Below, one piece after another: positions 44,799 to 64,000 of a stretch of 64,000 bases of DNA (the first letter of the stretch is position 1; each line of letters starts with the position of its first letter). Made by a program: the position numbers and the translations under genes. Source of the stretch: an uncultured Luminiphilus sp. (GTDB lineage: Bacteria > Pseudomonadota > Gammaproteobacteria > Pseudomonadales > Halieaceae); contig CALSVI010000014.1 of assembly GCA_943840615.1 (NCBI GenBank), forward strand, positions 1 through 64,000, given 5' to 3'. The notes beneath the pieces were generated by a model. The model had not been told where the DNA came from. It saw nothing but the letters and a program-made list of their open reading frames with translations, and ran no database searches.

Positions 44799-45906
44799 TT
44801 ACTCCGGTAATCCGAGTGCCGGCATATTGCCGGCGCCGTGAAAGAAGGTGTCAACCACCTCAGCAGGCACTGATGCAAGGTCTGCATAAGTCCACGAGGG
44901 AGAGCGGTCTTTATCCACTCAGCAATGCCCGACACCCTCTGCGAACTCGGGATGCCGCATAATGTTGCAACCCAGCACGAGCTCCGACTCAAAGACCGCT
45001 TCTAAGCTGGCCTCCCGCGTTTGGTTTAACTGACGGAAAATCCAGGTCGCCGCCAAGGGCGAGCCATGGGCAAAGCCATCCTGCGCCTTGACCAGCCATT
45101 TATCTTCGCCCTGCCAGTTCCTCACGCGATCATGAATGATGGCGAGATCATCGCCCGCCATCCACTCGTTGATGGTATCGATGTGGGGCTCAATCTGCGC
45201 ATCGGGCGGCTCTATGCTCGCCGTCATGCCAGCGAGTAACGAACCGACCAGCTCATGGTTAGTGCGCCGCATCACCAGACCACGCCTGCGCGGTCAAGCC
45301 GCCGAGCAAGTCAGCCCTTTGAACATTGCCGAGGAAGTGAGTACCCAGCCCGCAGTACAGCGCATCACTAGCATTAATATGAGAGGACGTGAGTGCCAAA
45401 AAGCGGCCGACCTGGCCTGGCATACGATTCAGGAACCAACTACCCCCTACGTCAGGAAACAACGCAATCGTGATCTCAGGCATACCAATGCGGGTCCGCT
45501 CACTGACTACGCGATAGCGACACCCCGCGAGAATACCGAGCCCTCCGCCCATCACCACGCCGTGACCCCAGCAAATCAAGGGCTTGGTATAAGTATGCAG
45601 CAAGTAGTTCATCCGGTACTCGCGGGCAAAAAACTGCTCGGCGTACTCACAGGGGCCACCTGGCGTTTCGACGCAAGAATTACGAAGGGCCTGTACATCG
45701 CCACCCGCACAAAATGCCTTCTCGCCTGCACCATCGATGACCACGGCCACCACATTGGCGTCGTCAGCCCACGCCTCGAGACGGTCAGTGATCACGTCTA
45801 CCATTTCGCGGGTCAGCGAGTTCAGCGTTTTCTCGACATTAAGCGTCAGCTGCCCAATCACCCGGTCTCCCGCCGGGTGCTCGGTCACCAGCACACTAGC
45901 CGTCAT
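44799..45906 (-). CDS. 3-hydroxyisobutyryl-CoA hydrolase, frameshifted
   Basis: About 370 residues when joined. The N-terminal crotonase part has AFCAGGDVQAL, GHGVVMGGGLGI and PEITIALFPDVGGSWFL; the C-terminal part, typical of the hydrolase rather than hydratases, has TNHELVGSLLAG and MRHPEFAEGV. The frame shifts near 45263-45270 and at least once more near 44914-44932. The true end then reads DKDRSPSWTYADLASVPAEV and finishes at the TAA of 44799-44801. It releases CoA from 3-hydroxyisobutyryl-CoA. The ATG at 45906 overlaps the hydratase stop (ATGA). Confidence 0.88.
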
Positions 45907-46691
45907 TGATTTTTCCAATCAGGTTCGCGCTTCTCGAGGAACGCGTTAGTGCCCTCGTGCTGATCTTGCGTTGAGAACAACGACACGAACTCATCACGCT
46001 CTGCGACCAGCCCATCAGCAATAGCAATATTGCGTGCAGAGTGAATCAACCGCTTACAGGCCGCTATGGATGAAGGCGACTGATTGCCGACCTTGGCTGC
46101 CAACGCAGTCGCCGCCGCCAGCGACTCACCGGTGGGCACCACTTCCTCCACGAGTCCGAGCGTCAATGCCTGCTGCGCGCCGATGCGCTCTCCACACAAG
46201 ATCATTCGCTTGGCCCAGCCTTCTCCCACCAATTGGGTCAGTCGTTGCGTACCGCCTGCACACGGCAAAAGGCCCACCCGCGCTTCGGGCAGTGCCAGGG
46301 CGGCCTGCTCTTCGGCAATACGGATATCGCAGGCCAACGCCACTTCCAAGCCACCACCCATCGCAAACCCATTAATCGCGGCAATCGACACGCCGCGAAA
46401 ATCAGCGAGCGTTTCAAACGCGTCGCCAAAGGCCTCGCCCACTGCGCGCGCCACGTCGGCATCACTCGAGGCAAACTGATTCAAATCTGCGCCCGCGGAG
46501 AAAAATTTCTCGCCCGCGCCGGTAAAAACCAACGCATAAACGGCTGGATCTGCATTCAACGCCTCAACCACGGCCTTAAGCGCCGGCAAGCTCTCGCGGT
46601 CCCAGGTATTAGCGGAAGGATTATCGATGATGACCGTCGCAATGTTGCCGTCGATCGAGACTTTGATTTTTTCAGATGGGCTGATACTCAT
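45903..46691 (-). CDS. Enoyl-CoA hydratase (valine-pathway position)
   Basis: 262 residues, normal for a crotonase. The oxyanion-hole and active-site segments are FSAGADLNQF, IAAINGFAMGGGLEVALACD and LPEARVGLLPCAGGTQRL, with the two expected Glu positions (EVALACD and PEARVG). It adds water to the 2-enoyl-CoA, here most likely methacrylyl-CoA. It overlaps the genes on both sides by ATGA, giving tight coupling in the valine operon. Confidence 0.9.
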   Translation of the reverse strand: MSISPSEKIKVSIDGNIATVIIDNPSANTWDRESLPALKAVVEALNADPAVYALVFTGAGEKFFSAGADLNQFASSDADVARAVGEAFGDAFETLADFRGVSIAAINGFAMGGGLEVALACDIRIAEEQAALALPEARVGLLPCAGGTQRLTQLVGEGWAKRMILCGERIGAQQALTLGLVEEVVPTGESLAAATALAAKVGNQSPSSIAACKRLIHSARNIAIADGLVAERDEFVSLFSTQDQHEGTNAFLEKREPDWKNQ

Positions 46692-47848: not shown

Positions 47849-48062
47849 TCTGGGTTCTCCACTACTGCGTTGCCCACGCCAGTACTCCGCTAGCCCGCCA
47901 GTATAAACCGATTCGGCTCACGCCCACCTTCCGAGCGCCCAATTAGAATCGATTACAAGGCGCATCAATACTACGTTTTAAGGGCGTACTTCGCTGGCAG
48001 TCTGTCGTCACGCAGTTTACCCTGTTGTCTCGATTTTTTTGATGGTTGGGGGAAGCACAGCA

Positions 48063-49472
48063 ATGTCTCAGGACAATGGTGACGCCAAGGCATTTATTGC
48101 CGATCTTGTGGCGCGGTCACGTGCCGCACAGAAGCAGATTGAATACTATTCTCAGGAGCAGGTGGATGCGCTGATTCGCGCCATGGTCTGGTCTGTGGCG
48201 AGGCCCGGTGTGGCAGAAGAGATCGCCCAATTCACCGTCGATGAGACCCAGCTGGGGAACTACGACGGCAAGTTCCTGAAAATACAACGTAAAACCCGCG
48301 CCACGCTGCTCGATATTATCCACGACAAGTCAGTCGGCGTGATTGAGGAATACCCTGAGCGGAACATTCGTGTGCTCGCCAAGCCGCTGGGTGTGATCGG
48401 CGCACTGGCGCCATCGACCAACCCGGAGGCGACGCCCGTTATTAAGGGCATCCATGCGGTGAAGGGCAGAAACTCCATCATCGTCGCGCCGCACCCTAGA
48501 GCGAAACTCACTAACAAAAAAATCTGTGACCTCATGCGCGCCGCGCTCAAAAAAATGGGCGCGCCGGAAGATTTGGTGATTGGCATTGAAACGCCGAGCC
48601 TGGAGTCAACAAACGAGCTCATGCGCCAGTGCGACTTGGTACTCGCCACCGGCGGGGGCGCCATGGTCAGCGCCGCCTATTCGAGTGGGACCCCCGCGCT
48701 GGGCGTCGGTGTGGGTAATGCCGTTATTACCGTTGACGACACTGCAGATCTTGACGCGGCAGCAGAAAAAATCCGCCTGTCGAAAACGCTGGATCTGGCG
48801 GCCTCCTGCTCCTCTGATAATTCCGTTGTGTTGCTCGATGGTATTTACGAGCCCATGCTCGAAAAACTGAAAGCGCAAGGTGGTTATCTTTGTAACGAGG
48901 AGGAAAAAACTGCACTGCGCAATACGCTGTGGGATGAGGAGCTCCATCTGAATACGGCCATCGTCGCGCAGCCGCCAGAAAAAATTGCCCAAATGGCTGG
49001 CTTAAATATCCCTGAAGAGACCCAGTTTTTTATTGTGCCAGAGGCCGGTTGGGGCCCCGAGCATCCGTTTTCGGGAGAGAAGCTCTCGGTCATTATGGCG
49101 CTCTACCGCGCCCGAGATATCGACCACGCCATCGAGCTCACCCAGAACATTCAGGCCTATCAAGGTCAGGGCCACAGCTGCGGTATTTACTCAGGAAGCG
49201 ACGAAAATATCATGAAGCTCGCGGAGAATACCTACACCTCGCGGGTGATGGTCAATCAACCACAGTCGGCCTCTAATAGCGGCAACGTCTGGAATGGCAT
49301 GCGCCAGACATTCTCGTTGGGATGTGGTTCATGGGGTGGCAACGGCACCAATAACAACATCACCTGGCGAGACCTGATCAACGAAACCTGGGTCTCAATG
49401 CCGCTGGCCGAGCATAAAGTGATCCCCTCGGACGAAGAGCTGTTTGGAAACGTGATTGCCCAACTGGGATGA
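48063..49472 (+). CDS. CoA-acylating aldehyde dehydrogenase
   Basis: 469 residues. It belongs to the acylating ALDH group: GVIGALAPSTNPEATP and LAASCSSDNSVVLL, the latter with the catalytic Cys, are close to acetaldehyde and sulfoacetaldehyde dehydrogenases. It turns an aldehyde into acyl-CoA with NAD(P)+. The start at 48063 is preferred as GGGGGAAGC lies before it; the open frame to 48039 has only a TTG. It begins the plus-strand series with P450, AhpD-like and PQQ genes. If the downstream acetoin-type E1/E2 makes acetaldehyde, this enzyme could turn it into acetyl-CoA; that link is inferred. Confidence 0.88.
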   Translation: MSQDNGDAKAFIADLVARSRAAQKQIEYYSQEQVDALIRAMVWSVARPGVAEEIAQFTVDETQLGNYDGKFLKIQRKTRATLLDIIHDKSVGVIEEYPERNIRVLAKPLGVIGALAPSTNPEATPVIKGIHAVKGRNSIIVAPHPRAKLTNKKICDLMRAALKKMGAPEDLVIGIETPSLESTNELMRQCDLVLATGGGAMVSAAYSSGTPALGVGVGNAVITVDDTADLDAAAEKIRLSKTLDLAASCSSDNSVVLLDGIYEPMLEKLKAQGGYLCNEEEKTALRNTLWDEELHLNTAIVAQPPEKIAQMAGLNIPEETQFFIVPEAGWGPEHPFSGEKLSVIMALYRARDIDHAIELTQNIQAYQGQGHSCGIYSGSDENIMKLAENTYTSRVMVNQPQSASNSGNVWNGMRQTFSLGCGSWGGNGTNNNITWRDLINETWVSMPLAEHKVIPSDEELFGNVIAQLG

Positions 49473-50834: not shown

Positions 50835-51431
50835 ATGAGCCGCATTAGCTTTGTGCCCACCTCTGAATGGCCTGACGACCTCCGAACCTTTGTCGCCGCC
50901 GACAGCGCCACTGAACTCGAATTAGGTATCACACGCATGCTCGCTCACGCGCCTGACTTGGCCATGGGACCCATCAGTTTCGGGGCAGCCATGGTGAAAA
51001 ACCGAACACTTCCTGAACGCTTGATTGAGCTCCTGCGACTGCGCGTTGCTTTCCACAACCAATGCCGAAGTTGCATGGCGATTCGTTACCGCGCCGCCAG
51101 TGCAGATGTCAGTGAATCGGATGTTTGTAGCCTTGAGCAGCCGCGGGAAGCAGAGACACTGGATGACCGCGAGCGACTCGCCGTTGAACTGGGCGATCGC
51201 TTCGCCTGTGACCATTTATCGATCGACGAAGCATTTTTCGACTCGCTGAAGGCCCTTTTTTCTGAGGCCGAAGTAATGGAACTGCTCATGCATTGCGCCT
51301 TGTATGTGGGCGTGGGTCGACTAGCCGCCGTGCTGGATATGACGGAAGAGCTTCCGCAAGGCTTTGATCTGCCTTTTAGCGCTGATCACAGTGTGTCACC
51401 CACATCGGGCGAACCCGTGGTGGTCAGGTGA
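50835..51431 (+). CDS. Carboxymuconolactone-decarboxylase/AhpD-like protein
   Basis: 198 residues, cytoplasmic. The core helix has RLRVAFHNQCRSCMAIRYR, the CxxC active site of the AhpD group, preceded by ELLRLR. AGGAAGATCC precedes the ATG. Its stop overlaps the GTG of the PQQ gene by the sequence GTGA. In such clusters AhpD-like proteins often accompany oxidative pathways and may deal with peroxides or reactive products. The reaction is not proven. Confidence 0.85.
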   Translation: MSRISFVPTSEWPDDLRTFVAADSATELELGITRMLAHAPDLAMGPISFGAAMVKNRTLPERLIELLRLRVAFHNQCRSCMAIRYRAASADVSESDVCSLEQPREAETLDDRERLAVELGDRFACDHLSIDEAFFDSLKALFSEAEVMELLMHCALYVGVGRLAAVLDMTEELPQGFDLPFSADHSVSPTSGEPVVVR

Positions 51432-53524
51432 GCCGACTTATGAAACAACGCACTCGCGCGCCTGGCGCTTCAAGCGAGTCGAACGGAATGTTCATTGTGG
51501 TACCGACACGATGCCGAAACCCCCACCACCTCGTTTGGGCTCTGTTGAGCCTCTTCTGGATGCCGGTGCCAATCACAGCGGAACCTCATCACGCATGGTC
51601 GTTACCAGGTGGCGACGCCGGGGGTGGACACTTCAGTCAGGCCACCCAGATCACGCCAGAGAATGTGAGTGAACTGGAGATCGCTTGGACCCATCGCTCA
51701 GGTGATTTTCGACAGGGCGAAAACTTTATTGGCGGCCTGACTGGAGAAGCCCCGCTCCAGTCCTCGTGGCAAGCAACACCCGTTTTGATCGATGACCATC
51801 TGTACCTTTGCACGCCCTTCAATCGCATTCTCGCGATTCATGCCGAGACGGGCGCTGAGCGGTGGTCCTACGCCCCTGACATTGATCTAGAGGGTTTTCC
51901 TATGCCCCGGTGCCGCGGCGTCACACAATGGACTGATACCCGGTTGCCCGAAGGCGAACCCTGTCACCGCGTGGTCATCGCTCCGTTGATGGACGCTCGT
52001 GTCGTCGGCTTGGATGCCGATAGCGGCGAAGTCTGCCCTTTTGGCAATGCGCACGAGCTCGACCTCAGTGAGGGCCTTGGCCCTTATGAGACCGGCTTCT
52101 ATATGCTCAACACGCCGCCAGCGATCACCGGAAACACCCTCATCACGGGGGGATCTGTCGCAGACAATATTACGACCACTGTACCGAGCGGTGTTATCCG
52201 CGCCTATGATCTAAGCAACGGAAAGCTGCTGTGGGCATGGGAACCCGTCATCGCCGTGACCGAATCCGGCAAAGCGGCTTCTGAAGCAGGAGACAATCCT
52301 GCCAATGCGCCACTCAATGCCGATACGCCGCGCTATCAGCAGGGTACGACCAACTCCTGGTCCTATCTGTCAGTCGACCCGGAACTGGGTCTCGTCTATG
52401 TCCCGACGGGTAACACTTCGCCGGATTATTATGGGGGGCATCGGGGCAATCTTGATCACTACTCCAGCTCGGTCGTCGCGCTATCGATTGAGACCGGCGA
52501 TGTCGTCTGGCACTTCCAAACGGTGCACCACGACATCTGGGATTTTGATGTGCCCTCGCAACCAACGCTCTTTGAAACCGATATCGACGGACGAGCGGTT
52601 AAAGGTTTGGCGCAGACCACCAAACAGGGTTACGTATTTTTGCTTGATCGGCAGACCGGCGAACCCCTTTTTCCGGTGGAGGAAGTGCCCATGCCTCAAG
52701 GCGCGGTGCCCGGAGATTACACCGCGCCCACTCAGCCGGTGCCGGTCAAACCCCGCTCACTGCTGGATCTTCCCGGCGAGCGTGACCCCATTTGGGGACT
52801 CGTACCCTGGGATAAATGGGCCTGTAAGGATACCCTTTCCTCTTTGCGCTACGAGGGTCCCTTCACGCCCCCAGCACTGGAGGGCGCGCTCCATATGCCC
52901 AGCGCATTTGGAGGTCAGAACTGGGGTGGACCGGCCATTGATCCGGGCCGCCACAAACTGGTCGTCAATACGCTCCACATGGGTACGATAGTGCAGCTGA
53001 TCCCCCGTGATCAATGTGATGGCGAAGGCCCTGAGCCAGTCGCCGACGGCCCCTTTTTGCTTGAGCCTTCCGAGGGCACCCCTTATTGCAACCGACGCTG
53101 GTTGGGATTTGTCTCACCGCTAGGGGTCCCCTGCACACCGCCGCCCTGGGGCACACTAGCCGGCATTGATCTGCGAACCGGCAACGTCGATTGGCAGGTG
53201 CCTCTTGGGACCACGCGCGATATGGCTCCCTGGCCGTTCTGGTACATCCAGGGCTCTCCGAATTTAGGCGGCCCTGTCAGCACGGCCAGCGGTCTGACTT
53301 TTATCGGCGCCACCACGGATCACTTCCTCAGAGCCTTTGATACCGACACGGGGGAGGAGCTCTGGAAAGGCCGTTTGCCTACCTCAGGGCACGGGCTGCC
53401 CATCACCTATCAACTCACTGAGGAAGGCCCACAATATGTCGTGATTGCAGCGGGCGGCCACGCCGCGATGGGAACGCCACCCGGCGATTACCTGATCGCC
53501 TTCAGGCTACCGGAAGACTCTTGA
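51428..53524 (+). CDS. PQQ-dependent dehydrogenase (soluble/periplasmic, glucose-dehydrogenase-like)
   Basis: 698 residues with an N-terminal hydrophobic stretch (VWALLSLFWMPVPITA), a probable signal peptide. The mature part starts HHAWSLPGGDAGGGHFSQ and carries the eight-bladed propeller Trp-docking repeats, for example GDVVWHFQTVHHDIWDFDV and GQNWGGPAIDP. No cytochrome c motif and no N-terminal membrane helices are seen, so it is the quinoprotein type, possibly on the outer side of the inner membrane. It oxidises an alcohol or sugar and passes electrons on. The start is GTG at 51428 overlapping the previous stop; an ATG at 51488 is also possible. Confidence 0.85.
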   Translation: MSRLMKQRTRAPGASSESNGMFIVVPTRCRNPHHLVWALLSLFWMPVPITAEPHHAWSLPGGDAGGGHFSQATQITPENVSELEIAWTHRSGDFRQGENFIGGLTGEAPLQSSWQATPVLIDDHLYLCTPFNRILAIHAETGAERWSYAPDIDLEGFPMPRCRGVTQWTDTRLPEGEPCHRVVIAPLMDARVVGLDADSGEVCPFGNAHELDLSEGLGPYETGFYMLNTPPAITGNTLITGGSVADNITTTVPSGVIRAYDLSNGKLLWAWEPVIAVTESGKAASEAGDNPANAPLNADTPRYQQGTTNSWSYLSVDPELGLVYVPTGNTSPDYYGGHRGNLDHYSSSVVALSIETGDVVWHFQTVHHDIWDFDVPSQPTLFETDIDGRAVKGLAQTTKQGYVFLLDRQTGEPLFPVEEVPMPQGAVPGDYTAPTQPVPVKPRSLLDLPGERDPIWGLVPWDKWACKDTLSSLRYEGPFTPPALEGALHMPSAFGGQNWGGPAIDPGRHKLVVNTLHMGTIVQLIPRDQCDGEGPEPVADGPFLLEPSEGTPYCNRRWLGFVSPLGVPCTPPPWGTLAGIDLRTGNVDWQVPLGTTRDMAPWPFWYIQGSPNLGGPVSTASGLTFIGATTDHFLRAFDTDTGEELWKGRLPTSGHGLPITYQLTEEGPQYVVIAAGGHAAMGTPPGDYLIAFRLPEDS

Positions 53525-53547: not shown

Positions 53548-54726
53548 TCAGGGGCTCTCGAGTTCAGCCACCACTGCTTTGAGAAAAGCCGCGGCCTGAG
53601 CGCCATTGACGACACGATGATCACTGCCCAGCGTCAGCGTTATCATTGACTGGGCCACCACCTCATCGGCTTCATTGAATGCCGGCACACGCCGCACGGT
53701 CCCTGCCGACAGCACCATGATTTGTGGCGGCGTCACCATCGCGGTGAACGCCGTGACGCTATGCATGCCCAAATTGCTAACAGTGATAGCAGCGGGCACG
53801 TGATCAGAGGCCGTCATCTGACCGGAACGCGCCCTGGTGATTAGCTCGCGCGAATGGCTCGCTAAGCTCTCGAGACCCACATCAGCCCTCGCTTGCACCA
53901 CCGGGGCCAGAACGATGTTGGCTTCGGTTGCGACAGCAACACCCACCGGCTGGTTCTCGACTGGCGTCAATTGCTCGCCATCGAAGGTCTGATTGAGTTC
54001 AGGATGCGACCGCAGCGCCTGCTGCACGGCGGCAATAATCAGATCGTTTATCGAAGCATCGCCCGGTAAAGTCGCTACAGCATTCCCGACATTCGCCTCC
54101 ATACTGACGTGATATAGCGGCACAGTAGACTGGGCATGGGTGAGCTTGCGCGCGACGGTCGCCTGCTGTGAAGACAGTGGCTGACCGCTTGAAGCGACCG
54201 CTGCCGCTGAGGGCACATCCGCAACGCCTCGTTCGATCGCAAGATCGACATCCGCTTTAACGATACGACCCCGAGGGCCGGTTCCGGTCACTCGCGCCGG
54301 ATCAATCCCCGCCGTCTCAAGCTTTCGGCGCAAGGCTGGCGCAATGCGTGCAGACCCGGCACTTCCCTCGCCAGCTGAACTGGCGTCAGTGGTCGCTGCA
54401 GGCGATTCGGCAGTAGGCTCGGACACTGCTCCGCTAGTCTGTGCGACGATAAACGCTTCGATGGCTGCATCTGTCACCGCCTCGGCGGCAATGACCCCTA
54501 TCAACTGACCCACAGGGAGCTCCTCACCCACCTCGGCCAACACGCGCACCAAAGTCCCGGAGCTACGCGCTTCAAAGCTGTTCACAATTTTATCGGTCTC
54601 GATATCAACGATTTCCTCACCAGCCTTGACCGCATCACCCGCAGCTTTGTGCCAGGCGACGATCGTGCCATGGGTCATCTCGATGCCCCATTTCGGAATC
54701 GTTACTGCATCCATTCCTTCACTCAT
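53548..54726 (-). CDS. Dihydrolipoamide acyltransferase (E2) of a 2-oxo acid/acetoin dehydrogenase
   Basis: 392 residues. The lipoyl domain has its Lys46 in DIETDKIVNSFE, then a linker rich in Ala/Ser/Thr, the subunit-binding domain (ARIAPALRRKLETAGIDP) and the catalytic domain. The active-site end reads SDHRVVNGAQAAAFL; the usual motif is HxxxDG and here Asp is replaced by Asn. The downstream E1 genes are of the acetoin-dehydrogenase kind, so this would be the AcoC-like subunit. It starts at the ATG at 54726 and overlaps the end of the quinohemoprotein gene. No E3 gene is in the window. Confidence 0.88.
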   Translation of the reverse strand: MSEGMDAVTIPKWGIEMTHGTIVAWHKAAGDAVKAGEEIVDIETDKIVNSFEARSSGTLVRVLAEVGEELPVGQLIGVIAAEAVTDAAIEAFIVAQTSGAVSEPTAESPAATTDASSAGEGSAGSARIAPALRRKLETAGIDPARVTGTGPRGRIVKADVDLAIERGVADVPSAAAVASSGQPLSSQQATVARKLTHAQSTVPLYHVSMEANVGNAVATLPGDASINDLIIAAVQQALRSHPELNQTFDGEQLTPVENQPVGVAVATEANIVLAPVVQARADVGLESLASHSRELITRARSGQMTASDHVPAAITVSNLGMHSVTAFTAMVTPPQIMVLSAGTVRRVPAFNEADEVVAQSMITLTLGSDHRVVNGAQAAAFLKAVVAELESP

Positions 54727-56657
54727 CCGCAACACTCTGTGCGAGATCAGCCGACGGCTGTAACGAGAAGACCATTAAGGCGTTTCCCGGCATACGCGCA
54801 CCAAACTGGTACCCCGAATTTACGAGCACGTGCCCCTTGTACAGCACGGGGCCATCAGACTCGATGGAGCCTCCCAATGCCGTATCGCCCGACACCGATT
54901 CGAATTCTCCAAAAGTATCGAATGACCAGACGACCTCTCCCGAGAGGCTGTCGTAAGCATTGAGGTTGCCGTCCAAGCTACCTGCAAATACCAGCTGATC
55001 AGTGCTGGTAATCGCGGCAGACATACCTTGATCACAGACTGGAATCGGCGACTTGCCGTCGCAGTCAGCCACACTGGGCGTGTACCAGCGCGCTGTCGCC
55101 AGAGGTCGGGTCCAACGCATGGATGCCGGGAGAAATCGGCCCGGTGAAACGTCCGGTGATCGTCGTATCAGCAATAGGCACGAACAAAGAGTCGCCATTT
55201 GCTGACATACCCCAGTGGACTCCGCCAAGGAAGCCACCGCGACCGACTTTGTTATGCCACACAATCGCACCGCCCTTGTCTGGGTCGAGCGCGTAAACAT
55301 CACCACTCTTCTGGCCCACCAACAGGTAATCGCGCCCCTCGCCAGACCACAGGACTGTCGAGGCGCCGATATCCAGATCAGGGCCGTCCTCTTCCGGGCA
55401 GTTGGCCGCCTCGCCGATGAAGCACGCCATATTCCAGGCATCCCCGCCCAGCAGCTGCTTCGCCCACTGACGCTCGCCCGTGGCTAAAGAAAAAGCCAAT
55501 ACCGCGTCACTGGTATCCGCAGCAGGTGAGGTGTAGCCCTCCCCGGTACCGACATAGAGCACGCCGCGCTCGGCATCGATTGTTGGACTGTTCCAGACCG
55601 GCGCGCCGGCCGGCCCTTTACGGTCAGCACCGAAGGGATTCGTCTCACCCGTTTCCGCCGCGGGCTCGTCAATCACATGGGTCCGCCAATTCAACTCGCC
55701 TGACGCGGCATCCACGGAGACCACGCCGCCGCGGAAAGTGCAGCAGGCGTAGCCCGGATCGGCTGCGGTTGCCCACTCTGAAGAAGACAACGGTACATAG
55801 AGCGCGCCATCGTGGAGCTTTGGGGACCCAGTAATCGTTGCATCAGTATGATCGCCGACTGACGCGCGCCACACCAAGGAGCCGTCACTCGCATCAATGG
55901 CGTGAACCGTGGCGCTGAAATCACCCATATAGAGCACCGGATCGTCGCGGTCCGGCAACTGACCAAGCGATAGACTGCTACGAACCTCGGCGCCCGCTGA
56001 GTAAGTCCAGTGCGCGCAGCCTGAGTCGAGGTCGAGGGCATAAATTGTGCCCGACTGCGACCCGACAAATATTACGCCATCATGTACAAGGGGCTGTGAA
56101 CGTGCGCGGAGGGCTCCCGGGTAAGCAAACACCCACTTGAGCCCAAGCTGATCAACGTTGTTGCGGTCTAGTCCTGCTAATGCGCCATCGCTATGCCGGT
56201 GGTTTGCAGCATTGCCACCCCAACCTTGCATGGCTGCCGCGTCACTGTTGGCCAGTTCACCCAGTGGGTCAGCGCACGCCAGAATCGGTTTCGGCGGGGC
56301 CATGGCTTCTCCTGCCAAAAAGCCGGCCAGAACCTCTCGCTCAGTCGCCGACAAAGCCGAGGCCTGCGCCCGCATCACACCGTTATTCATGGCGTTCAAT
56401 ATGGTCTCGGCACCGATCGTCGAAAAAGTGATCATGTGCGGGGCACGCGGGACCTGCCCATCGTGGCAGGCAGCGCAGTGCGCTTGATACAGCCCCAGAC
56501 CATCGACCGATGCTTCTATCACGGTATCCGAGGGCATCGCCATACTTGAGGGCGCCGCATTCGCGAGCTGCATAAACACCACTGCCGCCAATATCGGGCC
56601 TATCCGGCACATCATATCCATTACTGTTGTCATTGCTTGTTCGCTTCTTTTTCTCAT
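54719..56657 (-). CDS. Cytochrome c/PQQ quinohemoprotein (polyvinyl-alcohol-dehydrogenase-like), frameshifted
   Basis: About 645 residues when joined. A signal peptide is followed by HCAACHDG (CxxCH, near 61-65), a single cytochrome c domain of about 100 residues, then PQQ-type propeller repeats such as GVIFVGSQSGTIYALDLDSG and ARWYTPSVADCDGKSPIPVCD. The cytochrome-first order resembles PVA dehydrogenase rather than the cytochrome-last alcohol dehydrogenases. The frame shifts near 55095-55101 (GG, minus strand). It should oxidise alcohols in the periplasm and pass electrons to its own haem. It sits inside the E1/E2 operon, two bases after E1 beta. Confidence 0.85.
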
Positions 56658-56658
56658 C

Positions 56659-57636
56659 TCAATAGGACAGCGTCTCTTCTACCGCGGCCATGACCCGCTC
56701 CACGCTGGGCACATATTCAGCCTCTAGACAGGGCGTCGCCGGCACCGGTGTATGCGGCGAGGTCACCCGTTTGACCGGCGCATCTAAAGTATCAAAGCCT
56801 TGCTCCACCGCCAGTCCTGCGATTTCCGACGCCATGCTGCAATAAGGATTCGACTCATCCACGACCACCAGGCGCCCGGTCTTGGCGAGGCTCTCAAGAA
56901 TAGTCGACTCATCGAGTGGTGAGAGGGTCCGCAAATCAATCACCTCGGCACTCACGCCTTTTTGTGCCAGCTGTGCAGCCGCCTGTTCAGCAATCACCGC
57001 AGTGCGGGACATCCCGACAATTGTAATATCGGACCCCTGCACCGCCGTTCTTGCCTGCCCAAAAGGTAGCAGATACTCGCCCTCAGGCACCTCGCACTCG
57101 TCCATATAGAGCGCTTTGTGCTCGCAGAAGATGACGGGATCATCATCACGGATTGCCGTCGTCAGCAGGCCCTTTGCATCGGCCGCATTGGCCGGCGTCA
57201 CCACCTTGATACCCGGAATGGCCGCCAGCAACGGGTACAAAATCTGCGAGTGCTGAGGGCCGGTGCCCGTGCCGGCACCGATCATCGTGCGAATCACCAC
57301 CGGTGTGCGCGCCTGCCCGCCAAACATATAACGGAACTTGGCAATCTGATTCAGGATCTGATCGAGACACACGCCCAGAAAATCGACGAACATGAGCTCT
57401 GCCACTGGGCGCAGGCCTGTTAAAGCAGCGCCACCCGCCGCGCCAACAATGGCAGACTCGGTGATCGGTGTGTCTATGACCCGGTGCACCCCGAATTTAG
57501 CGGGGAGCCCCTCAGTAATGCCGTAAACACCACCCTGATCACTGGCGACATCTTCACCCAGCACAATCACGCGCTCATCCCGCGCCATCTCCTGATGAAG
57601 GGTCTGGTTAATGGCCTCACGAATCGACATCTTCAT
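56659..57636 (-). CDS. E1 beta subunit (acetoin/2-oxo acid dehydrogenase type)
   Basis: 325 residues, normal for E1 beta. GEDVASDQGGVYGITEGL and RVIDTPITESAIVGAAGGAA are the conserved thiamine and interface regions, and VVTPANAADAKGLL and VFVDESNPYCS-like segments follow. It pairs with E1 alpha to make a TPP-dependent decarboxylase or acetoin-cleaving enzyme. The ATG overlaps the stop of E1 alpha (TAATG), so the two are coupled. The next gene, 2 bases on, is the quinohemoprotein and not E2, which is unusual. Confidence 0.92.
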   Translation of the reverse strand: MKMSIREAINQTLHQEMARDERVIVLGEDVASDQGGVYGITEGLPAKFGVHRVIDTPITESAIVGAAGGAALTGLRPVAELMFVDFLGVCLDQILNQIAKFRYMFGGQARTPVVIRTMIGAGTGTGPQHSQILYPLLAAIPGIKVVTPANAADAKGLLTTAIRDDDPVIFCEHKALYMDECEVPEGEYLLPFGQARTAVQGSDITIVGMSRTAVIAEQAAAQLAQKGVSAEVIDLRTLSPLDESTILESLAKTGRLVVVDESNPYCSMASEIAGLAVEQGFDTLDAPVKRVTSPHTPVPATPCLEAEYVPSVERVMAAVEETLSY

Positions 57637-58611
57637 TAGCGCAACCTCCCTTCGTAATGAATATAGACATCTGTATAGAGCTTATCCGGTGTCGGGTCGG
57701 CGGCTGCGTATGTCGTCTCGAAGCCACGGTCGATCTCGGCCAGGATAGCGGCGTCTATCTCGGCAATGGTCTCGGCACTCAGCGCTGCAGCACGCGAATC
57801 CGCCAGAAATCGCGGTATCGGATCGCTCACAGCGCGCTCCTGCGCCAGCTCGTCCTGATCTCGGTACGCCTGAGGATCGCCCTCGAAGTGGCCGTAGTAG
57901 CGGTTGCACACCGCTTCGATTGCCGTGGGGCCGCCACCCTCTCGGCCGCGCGTGATCGCGCGCTGGCACGCATCGTACATCGCAAAGAAGTCGCTGCCAT
58001 CCACTACCTCGGCTGGCATACCGAAAGGCGCCGGCGCGCTCCGCAATGCGGCCGTCTGGCTTCGGGCTTTTAGTAAATTCCGCGTAGCGATTATTTTCGT
58101 ACATAAAAATCATCGGTAACTGCAACACGACCGCAAGATTCAACGACTCAGCCACCGTGCCCTGATCGGATGCACCATCACCAATAAACGCCATGGAAAC
58201 GGCACCGTTACCCAATGTTTTAGCGGTTAGTGCAGCGCCCGCGGCGATCGGCGGACCGCCACCTACAATCGCGTTTGCACCCAACATGCCTTTGGACATG
58301 TCGGCAATGTGCATCGAGCCACCTTTACCGTTGCACAGTCCATCCTCTTTGCAGGCTAGCTCCAGCAGCATGGCCTCGATTTCACAGCCCTTAGCAATGC
58401 AGTGCCCATGCCCCCGATGCGTACTCGCAATGTAATCCTCATTGGTCATATCGAGGCAGGCCGCGACCGCGACCGCCTCTTGATTACGATAAATATGGAT
58501 AAAGCCGGGCAATTTACCCTGCTGATATTCGGAGCGCATCCGCTCTTCGAACTCTCGGATCGTTTTCATCAGCCGATAGGCATCGGCCAACTTTTCAGGT
58601 GATATGTCCAT
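57636..58611 (-). CDS. E1 alpha subunit (AcoA-like), one frameshift
   Basis: About 325 residues when joined. It starts MDISPEKLADAYRLMKTIRE and has the E1 alpha motifs CNGKGGSMHIADMSKGMLGA, FIGDGASDQGTVAESLNLA (TPP, GDG) and YENNRYAEFT, typical of acetoin-dehydrogenase AcoA. At the AAA of 58024-58026 one extra base shifts the frame; removing it joins RIAERAGAF to GMPAEVVDGSDFFAMYD. It ends at the TAA overlapping E1 beta. It is the first gene after the TBDR and a hairpin, and likely leads the operon. Confidence 0.9.
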
Positions 58612-58651
58612 GAGGTCTCCCCCGAAGGTGATTCAAAGACTGGTCAAAGAA

Positions 58652-58670
58652 AGGGCCCCAGAGGGGCCCT
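58652..58670 (-). terminator. Hairpin between the TBDR and the E1/E2 operon
   Basis: AGGGCCCC, AGA and GGGGCCCT form an eight-pair stem 22 bases after the TBDR stop. On the minus strand it is followed by a T-rich but interrupted tract, so ending of transcription may be partial and the operon may still be reached. Confidence 0.6.
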
Positions 58671-58691
58671 AAGAATACTGCCATGGATCGA

Positions 58692-61214
58692 TCAGAAACT
58701 GTATCCGACCTGGATACCGTATTCGCGCGGTGGTCCGAAGCGAGAGAAGTTCCACAACGTCGCAACCGGGTTAGCCGATACGCGATAACGTTCATCGGTG
58801 AGGTTCTTACCGTAGACCGAGACTTCAAAGCCCTGAGTGCCGGTATAAGTGATGTATCCATTTACCAGCGTTCTCTCCTCAAGCTGAGTATTACCCTTCT
58901 GCTTGATCACCGGATTGTCAGCGGTTCCACCCTGGAAATTAGCGGGGAACGAGCTAGTCTGAGCGCCGTCCTGATAGTGCATATTCACGTTGTAAGTGAG
59001 CATGGCACCACTGGTGAGATCCTGAAAGTAGCTCACACCCAAGCCGTAATTAAGTTCAGGTGAAAATGGCACTTCAAGGCCGCTCAGGTCAGGATTGAGT
59101 TGACCACCGGCACCCGATATACCAAGGTCGCCAGGGTTGATGCCCGGTCGGTAGTCATCATACTCATGATCCAACCATCCGAAGTTGCCGTCGATTCGCA
59201 TATTGTCCGTAACGGCCCACTGCATCTCAACTTCAACACCTTGCGCTGTGGATTCACCCACATTGACCGCCTGAGTCTCCTGGAAGTCGTTACCGGCCGC
59301 ATCCTTGATGGTCACAACGGTGTCACGCTGAAGGCTCTCATAGGTGGTGTTGAAGTAGGCCGCATTCAACCGCATAGTGCCGTCGAGCAGATCAGCCTTG
59401 AGACCAAACTCTATATTCTCGTTCTCCTCTGCATCGTAAGCCGCGCAAGAGCTCGGCGAGCCGCAGGTCTCGGAGAAACCACCCGCGACAAAGCCCGTCG
59501 CGAAGCTCGCATATGCCATCAAGTCATCAGTAAACTTATAATCGGCTACGACACGGAAGGTCGTCTTGGTCCACGTTTCTGAGTTCTTCTGGACGTTACC
59601 GAAGGCCGACTCCGGCAGCGGGTTGGTAAAGGGCCCCTGAGCCTGATCCAAGGTAATAAAGTTACTGACGGGATTCGCGGCGGTACCCAGGTTTTGGCGG
59701 ACGAAGTCCTTTTCGTCATGGGTATAGCGAAGGCCACCGGTCAGAGTCAGGCGATCAGTCACTTCAAACGACCCATCGGCGTAAGCAGCCCACGTTTTTC
59801 GGTCTTGGGTGGTGTACTGAATTTCAAAGGTATCCCGGTAAAAATCGGCACCCGCCAAGGGCAGGAAGAAACCGAGACTCGCAAAAACGTTGAATTCGAG
59901 ATCGTCCGTGTACGAAGCGGCACCCGCGACAAAGTTAAAGGGTCCGTCATACTGACTGGCGACTCGCAACTCCAGCTGGGTAGTGTCTCGGGTCGTATTC
60001 CGGCTCGCGTCATACAGCGACGTGTAGGCCTCACCGGTATAGGTGCTGGCCAGAATCTCGTCCTGATCGCGCATGCCGGTAATCGCTTTAACGATGTAGT
60101 TACCCAGATCAAATTCCATATTCAGGTAGATGCCATCGGCGTCTATCTGGTGCCCACTGTTCATGTCGATCAGCGAGTTTTGGGTGTAGCTTTGTCCCGT
60201 GATAAAGGGCTCGCTAATGCCCTGAGTCTGGTAACCCGGGAAGCCAATGAGGGGCCAGATATAGCCCTCTCCGTCTGGTGTGTCGTTCGCCGTGGCGGGC
60301 GTCTCAGAGTCGTCATCCACATATTCGAAGATGAGGTCTGCGGCCATCCAATCGTTGGGCTCCCACCGGAACTTCAGTTTGCCGGCGAGTACGTCTTTAC
60401 CGCCGATATTGCTGCCATCACCGGTCGTGGGGTAGGTGGAGCGAATGCTGTCAGTCGAAGGTGAGCTGGGATCACCCGTCACCTCGCTACAAGCAAAACA
60501 CAGTAGGTCACCGCCCATTGGCTTGGAATTGGTCCAGAAGCCGTCTGTATAGTCTCGAATCACTGATAGGCGCGCTGCCAAGGTGTCGCCCAAGGGTACG
60601 TTGATAGCGAACTTGAACTTTTCAATATCGCTATCATTACTGGTGTACTGACCGTAGTTTACTTCGAACTTACCGCCAAGCTCTCCACCCACTTCAGGTT
60701 TGATCGTGGTGAACGCAATCGCGCCGCCGGTTGTGTTCTTGCCAAACAACGTGCCCTGTGGACCACGGAAGATCTCGACCTGCTCGATATCGAATACTTC
60801 AACAAACTGGGACTGCACGTGGTTAAAGGCATAATCGTCGACCGTCAGGCCAACAGAGGGATCCTTGGTGACCAGAATCGAGATAAAGCCCGTGCCACGC
60901 ATGCCGCCGGCAATCGCGTTGAAACCATTCTGCGGTGTAAGCGTAACGTTAGGGGAGAGCTGCGCGAGCTCCGTGACGTCATTCTGGAAAGTCTTCTCCA
61001 ACTGTGCGGCTGTAATCGTGCTCACCGCAATCGGCAGGTCCTGCTGCTGCACATCACGTTTAGTGCCGGTCACGATGACTTCCTCTAATGAAGAAGCTGA
61101 GACCTCGTCATCGTCTTGAGCCAGCGCAGGCAGTGCCTGTGTACCGATGGCTACTGCAATCGAGAGAGCTATTTTTCGGGCAGGGAAACCCCGACTCTGA
61201 GAGTTTATCGTCAT
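58692..61214 (-). CDS. TonB-dependent receptor upstream of the E1/E2/quinohemoprotein operon
   Basis: 840 residues. The signal peptide ends at LPALA, then SSLEEVIVTGTKRDVQQQDLP gives the TonB box region, the plug has VEIFRGPQGTLFGKNTTGG and the barrel ends in EYGIQVGYSF. The sequence resembles the sucrose/oligomer-type marine TBDRs only in general outline. It reads directly into the E1 alpha operon 80 bases on, so its ligand is probably the operon's substrate. That is inferred from position. Confidence 0.93.
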   Translation of the reverse strand: MTINSQSRGFPARKIALSIAVAIGTQALPALAQDDDEVSASSLEEVIVTGTKRDVQQQDLPIAVSTITAAQLEKTFQNDVTELAQLSPNVTLTPQNGFNAIAGGMRGTGFISILVTKDPSVGLTVDDYAFNHVQSQFVEVFDIEQVEIFRGPQGTLFGKNTTGGAIAFTTIKPEVGGELGGKFEVNYGQYTSNDSDIEKFKFAINVPLGDTLAARLSVIRDYTDGFWTNSKPMGGDLLCFACSEVTGDPSSPSTDSIRSTYPTTGDGSNIGGKDVLAGKLKFRWEPNDWMAADLIFEYVDDDSETPATANDTPDGEGYIWPLIGFPGYQTQGISEPFITGQSYTQNSLIDMNSGHQIDADGIYLNMEFDLGNYIVKAITGMRDQDEILASTYTGEAYTSLYDASRNTTRDTTQLELRVASQYDGPFNFVAGAASYTDDLEFNVFASLGFFLPLAGADFYRDTFEIQYTTQDRKTWAAYADGSFEVTDRLTLTGGLRYTHDEKDFVRQNLGTAANPVSNFITLDQAQGPFTNPLPESAFGNVQKNSETWTKTTFRVVADYKFTDDLMAYASFATGFVAGGFSETCGSPSSCAAYDAEENENIEFGLKADLLDGTMRLNAAYFNTTYESLQRDTVVTIKDAAGNDFQETQAVNVGESTAQGVEVEMQWAVTDNMRIDGNFGWLDHEYDDYRPGINPGDLGISGAGGQLNPDLSGLEVPFSPELNYGLGVSYFQDLTSGAMLTYNVNMHYQDGAQTSSFPANFQGGTADNPVIKQKGNTQLEERTLVNGYITYTGTQGFEVSVYGKNLTDERYRVSANPVATLWNFSRFGPPREYGIQVGYSF

Positions 61215-61285
61215 GGCATATGTTCCTGTTGATTTTGTTTTAATTTATTCTGGATGCTTCAAGCTAACGGAAGACCTCTCCGTAG

Positions 61286-61304
61286 CTTGCTGAACACCAG
61301 CAAG
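61286..61304. promoter_or_regulatory. Inverted repeat before the TBDR
   Basis: CTTGCTG, a five-base spacer and CAGCAAG in the divergent gap between the TBDR (start 61214) and the peptidase gene (61401). Possible operator for either gene. Confidence 0.35.
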
Positions 61305-61349
61305 TTTCAGAATACTGTTAAAGTATTGTCCGTACAAGCACCAAAAAAT

Positions 61350-61380
61350 GCACTGCAAAAGCACTGCAAAAGCGCCAAAA
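61350..61380. repeat. Short tandem direct repeat in the divergent promoter region
   Basis: GCACTGCAAAA occurs twice in tandem (61350-61360, 61361-61371) and is followed by GCGCCAAAA, a degenerate third copy. The 11-base period, about one turn of DNA, fits adjacent protein-binding sites. Confidence 0.5.
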
Positions 61381-61400
61381 CTAGGCTGGAACTGGCAGAA

Positions 61401-62669
61401 ATGAATAGCTATCCCGAGAAAATCAAGCGCATCAGAACTCAATTGACCGTCGCGGGTGCCGCGGGTGCCGTGCTCAGCACGCAAGACAATGTTTTTTATG
61501 CCACGGGCTTCAGCTCGGTGATGGATGGATGGCAGCTGGCGGAACCTATTGCCGCCGTGTTTGTCCCTGCTGACACAGCATCGCCCGTGGTGCTCATCCT
61601 GCCCGAAGCGAGTGTCATCTCCCCCATTGTGTCCGAGCGAGGTGGACACCCCGTCTACTATGACCGCCTCGCGACCTTCGACATGCTGAATTTTTGTGAA
61701 ACCGCGCGCGCCGAAGATGCACACCTCGCGCTACCCGAGGATCTGCTGGCAGAGCTGGGTGAGGTAATGGAGCGGGTGGAGGGCGACTGTAGGCCCGACA
61801 TTATTCAGACAATCGCCGCATCACTCTCCCGTCACGTGGCCAAAAATAATCTGATTCTGTTTGATGATCTGCGGGTGGCTGCTCATGTCGAGACATTCAA
61901 TGGTCAATCAACAGGCGACGCCCTGGAGGCCATGTTCGCCGCTCGCGCCGTCAAGACCGAAGACGAGCTCGACACACTTCGAGAGAGTGGGCGCATTGCG
62001 GACGACATCATGGCTTACACCATTTCGCAACTGGGCATTGGCAAGAGCTGGAGCGAGGTGGAGAAGCAGGTCGCACATTTTATGATCGATCACGACGTAG
62101 ACCCCCTTCCGGGGAGCCCGATGCTGTTCGGTGGCGCCTATGATCTGGTCTTTCGACCTGACCTGTTCCGCACGCCGGTCAGCCTTCCCTTCAAAGGCGG
62201 CGAAATTGCCATTCTCGAAACCCAGGGGCGCTACAAAAATTTCTGGATAGACATCAATCGAACCGCCCACATCGGGCCCGCGACCCCCGCCTACCGACAT
62301 CAGTTCAACGCCGTCAGAGCAATCTTTGAGACGATCAGCGCGCGCCTCAAGCCCGGGGCCAATACTGCAGAGATCTGTGCCTTCCATGACATCCCCGCAG
62401 CGCAACGCCTCGACCCACCCGAAAAACTGCTGGTGGTGGCACATTCTGTTGGGCTGGTCCCGCTGGAGAGCCCCGTAAAGTACCCGGGAACTGGTTTGCA
62501 TGGCGCCAAAGAGGGGTTTGTGGTCGAGCCGGGCATGGTCATCAGTATCGACTGCCTCTATTTCGGCAGCAGACTGGGCCCTTCGCACATGGAAAACGTC
62601 TTTATCGTTAATGAGACAGGTGCAGAGCCGCTGTATCAATTTCCGTTGGATCTAGCGGAGACCGCCTGA
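61401..62669 (+). CDS. M24-family (creatinase/Xaa-Pro aminopeptidase-like) protein
   Basis: 422 residues with an N-terminal domain of about 170 residues (AGAAGAVLSTQDNVFYATGF) and a C-terminal pita-bread domain. The usual metal ligands look altered: ILETQGRYKNFWIDINRT replaces the common DxGxxxxGYxxDxxRT, VAHSVGLVPLESP keeps the His, and SHMENVFIV keeps a Glu. Loss of the first Asp is also seen in metal-free creatinase-type enzymes, so hydrolysis of a C-N bond other than a peptide is possible. The ATG at 61401 is chosen as the longer frame from 61254 runs through repeats. Confidence 0.85.
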   Translation: MNSYPEKIKRIRTQLTVAGAAGAVLSTQDNVFYATGFSSVMDGWQLAEPIAAVFVPADTASPVVLILPEASVISPIVSERGGHPVYYDRLATFDMLNFCETARAEDAHLALPEDLLAELGEVMERVEGDCRPDIIQTIAASLSRHVAKNNLILFDDLRVAAHVETFNGQSTGDALEAMFAARAVKTEDELDTLRESGRIADDIMAYTISQLGIGKSWSEVEKQVAHFMIDHDVDPLPGSPMLFGGAYDLVFRPDLFRTPVSLPFKGGEIAILETQGRYKNFWIDINRTAHIGPATPAYRHQFNAVRAIFETISARLKPGANTAEICAFHDIPAAQRLDPPEKLLVVAHSVGLVPLESPVKYPGTGLHGAKEGFVVEPGMVISIDCLYFGSRLGPSHMENVFIVNETGAEPLYQFPLDLAETA

Positions 62670-62683
62670 GACCACGAGCAGGT

Positions 62684-63607
62684 CTATCCCGCCAGACTCA
62701 GATGGTAGCCAAAGCGTGGGAACCACACCTGCGCCTCGAGCCCCGGCAAAGGCTCGACAGCCAAAACCGCTTGTTCACGATCCACCGCCAGCAGGCGTCC
62801 CGCCACGCTACCCCGATCAGCCGAGCCCGCAGACACCTGAACGGCATCTCCAAGCCATTCGCTCAAAGGCTCCTCAGCTGGAGTATCAGGCAACCGCCGC
62901 TTCTGACCACTCTTGATCGCGTCCCACGCCACCTCCATCGTCGCGTCCTCGCGGGTGCCGATACCTAAAGCCTCCACCCGTTGGTACCAGGCGACCAATG
63001 CGGGGAAAGCTTCCACGATCGGAACCAGATCAGGCAGCGCACTGTAGATCATCCACACCATGCCCCAAACATGAATGTCCGCACTGTCAGCCTGCGCCCC
63101 ACCTAAAAATAAACCGTTGAGCCCCAACTGCGCGTGAACGGCGCCAAGATAGGCGCGCAACTGACTGCAACGATCGGGGTCTCCTATCTCGAGGGTGTCA
63201 AAGTCGACGTCCGGAAAGACCTGCTTTCTATCAGCAAGAAAATCCGCATCCCACCTACTCTGGTAGGTCGCCAGCGCGGAATGCAGCAGCGGGACAAACA
63301 GGCGCTCACCCCATGCATAGAGCGCCGCATCAACCAAGGGGCCGCGCGCATTGATCAGCGGGCCGTCAGGCGCAGACTGGTCGATTGCCCTCGCGACCAT
63401 CCAATTATCAATAAAGACATCCGCTCCGATCTGCAACACCGGCGTACCCCGGTAACCGCCCGTGAGCTGCTCCACATCGGGCTTGGGCGCAATCATGGGC
63501 ATCTCAACGCTCAGCCATGACAGGCCTTTTAGGCCCATCATCTTCTGCGCCTTTTGTGAAAACGGCGAAATATCGTATTGATGCAGGATCAGGTTTGTCG
63601 TGGTCAT
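62684..63607 (-). CDS. Glutathione S-transferase-like protein
   Basis: 307 residues, longer than classical GSTs (about 210). The thioredoxin-like N-terminus has LHQYDISPFSQKAQKMMGLKG, with Ser in the SPFSQK position where a Cys or Ser acts, and GYRGTPVLQIGADVFIDNW (cis-Pro and substrate strand). The helical domain follows and about 90 extra residues are at the C-terminus. The ATG at 63607 has an AAGGAG site. The stop is 15 bases from the convergent peptidase gene. Confidence 0.85.
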   Translation of the reverse strand: MTTTNLILHQYDISPFSQKAQKMMGLKGLSWLSVEMPMIAPKPDVEQLTGGYRGTPVLQIGADVFIDNWMVARAIDQSAPDGPLINARGPLVDAALYAWGERLFVPLLHSALATYQSRWDADFLADRKQVFPDVDFDTLEIGDPDRCSQLRAYLGAVHAQLGLNGLFLGGAQADSADIHVWGMVWMIYSALPDLVPIVEAFPALVAWYQRVEALGIGTREDATMEVAWDAIKSGQKRRLPDTPAEEPLSEWLGDAVQVSAGSADRGSVAGRLLAVDREQAVLAVEPLPGLEAQVWFPRFGYHLSLAG

Positions 63608-63726
63608 AATGATGACTCCTTGCAATGCCGCCAAACCCTGACGCCGTCTGGTGTGATCGTCAAGGGTGCCGATAGGCTCCCGTAAAAAGTTTGAGTGTCT
63701 CGGGGCTGACCGGCTAAGCTTGGGCG

Positions 63727-64000
63727 ATGAATGCCTTAGCCGCTTTTTCCCAAGTCGTTAAAGATGCCACCTCTCAGCTGGGAGAATCTGACTTTGCGCA
63801 GGTAGTGAGCAATGGCATTCGAGAATTGATAGCAGCCGATGACACCTCGCTGATTCGCTACCTCGACGCAGGGCCGCCTGTGATCGAGTACACCTTGCCG
63901 ACGAAGCGGCGGGGAAAAACGATACTGGACCGCTACGTGAAAGGCCCTTTTTTGCTCGATCCCTTTTATCGCGCTGCTGAAGTAGAGGGGCGTTTTGGCG
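63727..64000 (+). CDS. N-terminal part of a probable LuxR-type regulator, cut by the window edge
   Basis: 91 residues are visible: MNALAAFSQVVKDATSQLG at the start and LIRYLDAGPPVIEYTLP, then KGPFLLDPFYRAA. The pattern resembles the sensor part of single-domain LuxR-family regulators of marine gammaproteobacteria, which have a C-terminal helix-turn-helix. That domain is outside the window, so the call is tentative. The gene is divergent from the GST-like gene. Confidence 0.5.
   Translation, partial: MNALAAFSQVVKDATSQLGESDFAQVVSNGIRELIAADDTSLIRYLDAGPPVIEYTLPTKRRGKTILDRYVKGPFLLDPFYRAAEVEGRFG

Follow-up and report, generated by a model that had tools for sequence, protein, structure and literature searches.

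The gene cluster described here lies on contig CALSVI010000014.1 of an uncultured Luminiphilus sp. (GCA_943840615.1, a metagenome-assembled genome (MAG) of 19 contigs estimated to be 82% complete), and was analyzed within the first 64,000 nucleotides of that contig, hereafter the window. On the minus strand, from 61214 to 53548, it encodes in order a TonB-dependent receptor (TBDR), the E1alpha and E1beta subunits of a thiamine diphosphate (ThDP)-dependent enzyme, a quinohemoprotein (QHP) and a lipoyl-bearing E2, the same order that the original prediction had given. The TBDR (58692 to 61214, 840 amino acids) matches Pfam Plug and TonB_dep_Rec_b-barrel. E1alpha is spread over two reading frames, one covering about residues 1-196 (58024 to 58611; E1_dh, with TIGR03182 below its cut-off) and one about residues 196-324 (57636 to 58025), the frame changing near 58025. 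E1beta (56659 to 57636, 325 amino acids) matches Transket_pyr and Transketolase_C, with NF006667 over its cut-off. The QHP likewise occupies two frames: the first (55095 to 56657) holds a leader recognized by eye, a CxxCH cytochrome c and most of a propeller matching Pfam PQQ and PQQ_2, and the second (54719 to 55090) the last part of the propeller, identified by its match to the intact genes of two related loci, L069 and L065. E2 (53548 to 54735) has domain matches to one lipoyl domain, an E3-binding domain and a catalytic domain with the motif DHRVVNG. All five predicted genes are thus present, with E1alpha and the QHP not single open frames.

The genes from E1alpha to E2 are tightly packed. 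E1alpha and E1beta overlap by 1 base, the gap from E1beta to the QHP is 1 base, and the QHP and E2 overlap by 8 bases if E2 starts at ATG or by 17 if it starts at GTG. The tight series that had been proposed therefore stands from E1alpha to E2. A terminator-like hairpin found by a consensus scan (stem at 58652 to 58670, minus strand) sets the TBDR off from it.

To place the locus among its relatives, we scanned a species genome collection with an E1alpha alignment and used 79 loci, taken from the best 80 of 466 relatives, a sample and not a census. An E1alpha tree of 85 rows was built from tblastn segments of all 79 loci, with two acetoin dehydrogenase operons as references (KlebAco and RhodoAco, no proven pyruvate E1alpha being among them); it is a quick tree with SH-aLRT support only. 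It contains a 25-row clade (support 100), clade A, made up of the window and 24 loci. In 20 of the 21 assessable clade A loci the QHP gene follows E1beta on the same strand; this count leaves out L062, L073 and L077, whose contigs end before or within the QHP start, and scores the partial QHP of L060 as present. E2 follows the QHP in 17 of 17 loci where the contig continues (in L057, L060 and L070 it ends before E2). All 24 loci have a TBDR upstream of E1alpha; in 16 the two genes are direct neighbors, and in 8 an M24 gene separates them. Non-conservation among relatives, which would have spoken against the original prediction, was not found. Close relatives of the locus carry the titles Luminiphilus, Halieaceae or HTCC2080. 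Clade A spans Luminiphilus and Seongchinamella unica, further gammaproteobacterial MAGs, and two MAGs whose titles read PS1 clade and Rhodobiaceae. As the PS1 clade is placed by NCBI in the Alphaproteobacteria, this distribution suggests that the locus has passed horizontally between classes; mis-binning of the PS1-clade and Rhodobiaceae MAGs is a possible alternative.

A second set of 58 genomes, covering the host's own genome, its genus and its order, gave the same picture: a QHP orthologue of at least 55% identity adjoins E1beta in 11 of the 11 other congeners that have it, and one of 52% also adjoins E1beta in a genome of another family. Among 390 sampled genomes of the order, 24 match the E1-linked QHP at E 1e-140 and 6 of them with more than 50% identity, and the distribution of this QHP type in the order is patchy.

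Outside clade A the association persists in other forms. Clade B comprises 15 loci, mostly with gammaproteobacterial MAG titles and with Woeseiaceae and Steroidobacteraceae among them, a few of the titles being doubtful. Here a QHP lies within 10 kb on the opposite strand in 11 of 15 loci, two of these matches, those nearest E1alpha in L087 and L090, being weak (39-40%); the remaining 4 loci have at most 3.9 kb of contig beyond E1alpha on its downstream side. Clade C also has 15 loci: 10 carry the QHP downstream of E1alpha and on its strand, 1 carries it on the opposite strand, and no QHP was found for the other 4, two of which extend 4-6 kb downstream. For the rest of the E1alpha relatives in the tree, the available flanks contain no QHP match above 150 bits. 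Over the whole E1alpha tree the QHP label changes 11 times, against 26.8 in shuffles. The titles 'Klebsiella pneumoniae' of four sampled loci (L101, L107, L111 and L123) look mislabelled.

The two protein trees agree on the closest grouping. E1alpha unites clades A and B (support 99), and so does a QHP tree (SH-aLRT 99), which sets them apart from clade C and other QHPs. The latter tree, again a quick one with SH-aLRT only, was built from open frames of at least 380 amino acids and at least 250 bits with near-identical rows dropped, and holds 23 rows from clade A and 9 from clade B (9 of the 11 clade B loci with a QHP). One of the 23 clade A rows is a second QHP from the contig of L061, and it groups with the QHPs outside the clade. 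Neither E1 nor E2 turned up in the stretches examined around 24 other QHPs, 17 of these stretches being only 3.5-4.5 kb long. Together these trees support co-inheritance of the QHP and E1 genes, despite the differing gene order in clade B.

The genes split in the window are whole in several relatives. Both are open in L065, L066, L068 and L069 (E1alpha 324-336 amino acids, QHP 626-645), and in two of these relatives DNA identity to the window is high (L065, 93.2% over 8.9 kb; L069, 94.6% over 7.3 kb). The first E1alpha piece is 100% identical to intact L065, and the second QHP frame matches residues 523-645 of the intact L069 and L065 proteins at 98-100% identity. Elsewhere in the window (43903 to 45918, minus strand) a NAD-binding_2 gene resembling hydroxyisobutyrate dehydrogenase and a gene with 372-amino-acid relatives are also both frameshifted, with open relatives. 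Because L065 and L069 are intact and two further genes are affected, we consider sequence error a likelier cause of the window frameshifts than decay of the operon, and a recent real loss of E1alpha and the QHP less likely. Between relatives, dN/dS was 0.02-0.15 in 11 of 16 gene comparisons, 4 of these 11 having dS near or above 2, and the other 5 of the 16 were saturated; in the closest pair, L065 and L069, it was 0.03-0.15. The genes of the locus are under purifying selection in these relatives. Conservation across genera and two classes, together with the low dN/dS, excludes a chance arrangement. Searches of one open-licence library aimed at the arrangement or the host listed no description of it. 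The arrangement, which the original prediction had called new, is real, conserved and, on the showing of that library, undescribed.

E1alpha is acetoin-dehydrogenase-like, as first proposed. The E1alpha of the related locus L039 is 55% identical to that of a Klebsiella aco-type operon and 52% to that of a Rhodococcus one, which adjoins a 2,3-butanediol dehydrogenase and an acetoin reductase; identity to a second E1 of the host is 50% and to a third, a contig-6 paralogue, 34%. In the tree, KlebAco and RhodoAco pair (98) outside a 48-row group (support 88) that includes the window, a placement resting on two references, so that E1alpha appears acetoin-dehydrogenase-like yet outside the clade of the two aco references. 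Like the aco operons, the locus has E1alpha, E1beta and E2 genes and an E2 with an N-terminal lipoyl domain. In both references, however, lpdA (E3) adjoins E2, whereas at the window locus no E3 gene stands in the operon beside E2; the QHP between E1beta and E2, the upstream TBDR and NG for DG in the E2 motif are found only here. The host has one E3 over the cut-off, on contig 3, and an E3-like frame below it on the window's own contig (80067 to 81374), about 19 kb from the operon.

This relationship bears on a rival account, in which the E1 is an ordinary decarboxylating 2-oxo-acid dehydrogenase for a late intermediate, the QHP performs a separate early step and the operon is shared for co-regulation only. 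Family models are unable to tell acetoin from pyruvate E1, the pyruvate E1alpha equivalog being the best NCBIfam match, below its cut-off, for the window and Klebsiella proteins alike, and in clade B the QHP and E1 genes lie on opposite strands. E1alpha is nevertheless far closer to the aco-operon E1s than to the contig-6 E1, and we regard this account as unlikely. Acetoin and 2,3-butanediol as substrates are not favored, with no E3 beside E2; a short-chain dehydrogenase/reductase (SDR) near the HTCC2080 locus matches acetoin-reductase and butanediol-dehydrogenase models below their cut-offs.

The QHP matches Pfam PQQ and PQQ_2 over their cut-offs and Cytochrome_CBB3 at 26 bits, just under the cut-off of 27. 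Its heme c motif CxxCH is invariant in 7 of 7 aligned sequences on the QHP chain, as are a GPD motif and a vicinal Cys pair (C305-C306 of L065), the protein of Sphingopyxis sp. 113P3 included; in quinohemoprotein alcohol dehydrogenases we take this pair to lie next to the cofactor pyrroloquinoline quinone (PQQ). The top Foldseek matches of a structural model were the quinohemoprotein alcohol dehydrogenases 1kv9 and 1yiq. Relative to these type II enzymes (1kv9, 1yiq and 1kb0), identity is only about 20% and the QHP heme c domain is N-terminal, whereas theirs is C-terminal on the same chain. The positions that align with the classical catalytic Asp and the Ca2+-ligand Asn of 1kv9 hold Asn and Glu in the QHP. 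A plasmid protein of Sphingopyxis sp. 113P3 that we take to be a polyvinyl alcohol dehydrogenase (PVADH) is 33% identical over 91% of the query and likewise differs at the catalytic Asp position. It shares the order of N-terminal heme c then PQQ-type propeller and has TBDR genes nearby, but no E1 or E2 is annotated in its 16-kb stretch, and at the aligned Asn/Glu and Trp-Asn positions its residues are not those of the QHP. Plasmids of Novosphingobium and Aromatoleum carry QHP matches of 39-45%. Polyvinyl alcohol as the substrate is not favored, the match to the 113P3 protein being 33% only.

Genes for PQQ synthesis were not found over the cut-off in most genomes with this QHP locus. Among the 58 genomes, pqqE was over its cut-off in 15 and pqqC in 16, the same genomes plus G031, in which pqqE is just below. 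Thirteen of the 58 carry the QHP locus (G000, G004, G005, G007, G009, G015, G020, G024, G028, G032, G033, G034 and G044), and pqqC is present in 4 of them (G007, G009, G015 and G033). In the other 9 neither pqqC nor pqqE was found over the cut-off, including G004 (97% complete), G024 (96%) and G044 (100%); the same holds for the 82% complete window genome, where PQQ might still be used if it is imported. These absences, together with the residue changes where 1kv9 has its catalytic Asp and its Ca2+ ligand, would fit a QHP that no longer uses PQQ, its propeller being empty and its role one of electron transfer or binding. We find this very unlikely, given the invariant vicinal Cys pair and GPD motif, shared even with the 113P3 protein, and the fact that PQQ import without synthesis is common: by one report, just 23% of the bacteria that carry PqqU also have genes for making PQQ (PMC12124388). 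A search of the 58 genomes for PqqU at E 1e-60, run without a positive control, gave no match.

What is most unusual about the locus is its altered E2. Wherever the motif was located in a full-length clade A E2 it reads DHRxxNG (14 of 14), as it does in the window (DHRVVNG); E2s outside the clade have DHRxxDG in 13 of 13, and the E2 on host contig 17 also has DG. On PF00198, cores of cluster E2s score 152-167 bits (three genomes) against 234-297 for 14 other cores (five genomes). In two PS1-clade MAGs (L075 and L078) the E2 gene encodes a 101-amino-acid lipoyl-only protein with its own stop, 94% alike between the two, and in L039, from the 68% complete MAG G028, it encodes 165 amino acids with lipoyl and E3-binding domains. 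Among 61 genomes around that of L078, 9 match the lipoyl-only protein, with the short frame (about 105 amino acids) only in L075 and L078. CoA activation by E1 and E2, as the original prediction had it, is therefore doubtful, with the motif changed and the core absent in three genomes.

The operon's E2 may instead be a lipoyl carrier and not an acyltransferase, passing acyl groups or electrons on to another E2 core or acceptor. The NG motif, the truncated proteins of the PS1-clade MAGs and G028, and the lower PF00198 scores all point this way. Most clade A members, however, keep a full-length E2 that is under purifying selection in the compared pairs, some E2s do not strictly depend on the Asp of the catalytic motif, and G028 is a single incomplete MAG; we hold the carrier role to be rather improbable.

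The receptor behaves differently from the enzymes. Between the window and L069, L066, L068 and L077 the TBDR is 32%, 54%, 55% and 57% identical while the E1alpha piece is 96-97% identical, which argues that the receptor has been swapped independently of the enzymes. L066 is a mosaic relative to the window (E1beta 98%, QHP 77%, E2 69% and TBDR 54% identical), as if its parts had been exchanged by recombination. A hairpin with a T-rich tail was seen by eye in 12 of 12 TBDR-E1alpha spacers folded, those of the window and 11 loci. A promoter scan of the window's spacer found no promoter-like site, and terminator-like sites over the whole region numbered 10 against 6.5 in shuffles (sd 2.6), not clearly above them, so read-through from the TBDR into E1alpha is possible. 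The case for import of one substrate by this particular TBDR, the starting point of the pathway first proposed, is weakened by the hairpin and the divergent receptors. The 17 PDB matches of the TBDR are siderophore, metallophore, heme and pesticin/colicin receptors, none of them PqqU or YncD, and the receptor also occurs in genomes that have PQQ genes; we do not favor it as a PQQ receptor.

Around the five genes lie further enzymes. A second PQQ-type dehydrogenase, glucose/quinate-like (51428 to 53524, plus strand; Pfam PQQ 696 bits, TIGR03074 659 bits and under its cut-off, no cytochrome domain matched), is the convergent neighbor in Luminiphilus loci. It is preceded on the same strand by a carboxymuconolactone-decarboxylase-family (CMD) protein (50835 to 51431; PF02627), found in several Luminiphilus loci, a cytochrome P450 (49511 to 50755; PF00067, with matches to bacterial P450s in PDB) and an acylating aldehyde dehydrogenase-like protein (48039 to 49472; PF00171, NF047625 at 514 bits with a cut-off of 600). 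On the receptor side are an M24 protein of creatinase/prolidase fold (61254 to 62669, plus strand; PF00557, homology to relatives from about 61395) and a glutathione-S-transferase (GST)-like protein (62684 to 63634, minus strand; PF13417, PF13410 and PF00043). A gene start at 63727-63999, cut by the window end and with relatives that look LuxR-type by eye, is a candidate regulator of the locus. The P450, second PQQ-type dehydrogenase and M24 genes recur across loci, joined in many by a cupin, the CMD protein and GST. Within the 15 clade B loci, of which several are truncated where the contig stops, the PQQ-type dehydrogenase occurs in 12, a TBDR in 11, M24 in 10 and P450 in 9.

Several Luminiphilus loci have a ChrR-type cupin gene between the PQQ-type dehydrogenase and E2 (L039:8335-8814, L040:7412-7957); it is absent from the window, L065 and L069, where the spacing between these genes is 23 bases. 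Upstream of five HTCC2080-type loci, a DUF3604 protein is encoded beside GST and SDR genes (L046:1869-3725). Rieske ring-hydroxylating oxygenase alpha subunits lie near E1/QHP loci (L078:2864-4183, L094:8444-9874), hinting at aromatic or terpenoid substrates. A second host QHP (L145:5260-7203) has frames close by that look, by eye, like parts of a P450, and the link between QHP and P450 may be more general. With the P450, M24 and PQQ-type dehydrogenase as neighbors and a QHP 33% identical to the 113P3 protein, the acetoin, 2,3-butanediol and polyvinyl compounds suggested at the outset are not specifically indicated.

With confidence falling just short of even, we read the locus as a catabolic module for a probably hydrophobic organic compound, in which a QHP step precedes an E1 step. 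The compound would cross the outer membrane through the TBDR, and the periplasmic QHP, presumably using PQQ, would oxidize a hydroxyl group and feed the electrons into the respiratory chain by way of the heme c that it carries itself. The resulting carbonyl compound would then enter the cytoplasm, where E1alpha and E1beta, as relatives of the acetoin dehydrogenase E1, would cleave a C-C bond next to the carbonyl. The acyl fragment would load on the lipoyl domain of the operon's E2 and leave it by a route that may or may not involve the E2 core, E3 would come from elsewhere in the genome, and the acylating aldehyde dehydrogenase encoded nearby could take over any short aldehydes formed. The order of events, QHP first and E1 later, is plausible.

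Several observations weigh against such a module. The window's own E1alpha and QHP are frameshifted, the QHP and E2 frames are disrupted in G032 (L076), and in L074 the QHP is gone while TBDR, E1 and E2 are kept; there, a 174-base gap starts with a QHP-like leader by eye and gave no tblastn match. The changed E2 motif and the loss of the E2 core in three genomes leave the acyl transfer doubtful, the receptor appears exchangeable, and no transporter for the required inner-membrane step was noticed in the locus, none having been specifically searched for. For the QHP, the structural model is of modest confidence (mean pLDDT 72, from 7 sequences), its matches also include BamB, the residues aligned with the 1kv9 catalytic Asp and Ca2+-ligand Asn are Asn and Glu, and nine locus genomes have neither pqq gene over the cut-off.

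A bolder form of the module would have a ThDP E1 descended from acetoin dehydrogenase, with a lipoyl carrier instead of its own acyltransferase core, wired to a periplasmic QHP as an undescribed two-compartment system for oxidative C-C cleavage, passed between aquatic Gamma- and Alphaproteobacteria and often residing in cells unable to make PQQ. We consider this quite unlikely as a whole.

Halieaceae are described as abundant in coastal seawater and responsive to phytoplankton blooms, with an understudied ecophysiology, in passages of one article (PMC10100682) that make no mention of PQQ, acetoin, P450, aromatic compounds or alcohol dehydrogenase. For such organisms, a locus that ties a receptor, a periplasmic heme dehydrogenase and a ThDP cleaving enzyme together marks one substrate class and hints at an undescribed degradation pathway. 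The strain records of HTCC2080 and Seongchinamella unica carry the locus with open genes, and these are organisms in which its substrate could be found. The altered E2 makes it testable whether an E1 of the 2-oxo-acid dehydrogenase type works without an acyltransferase of its own, and the missing PQQ synthesis genes predict that many carriers of the locus would rely on PQQ from their neighbors.

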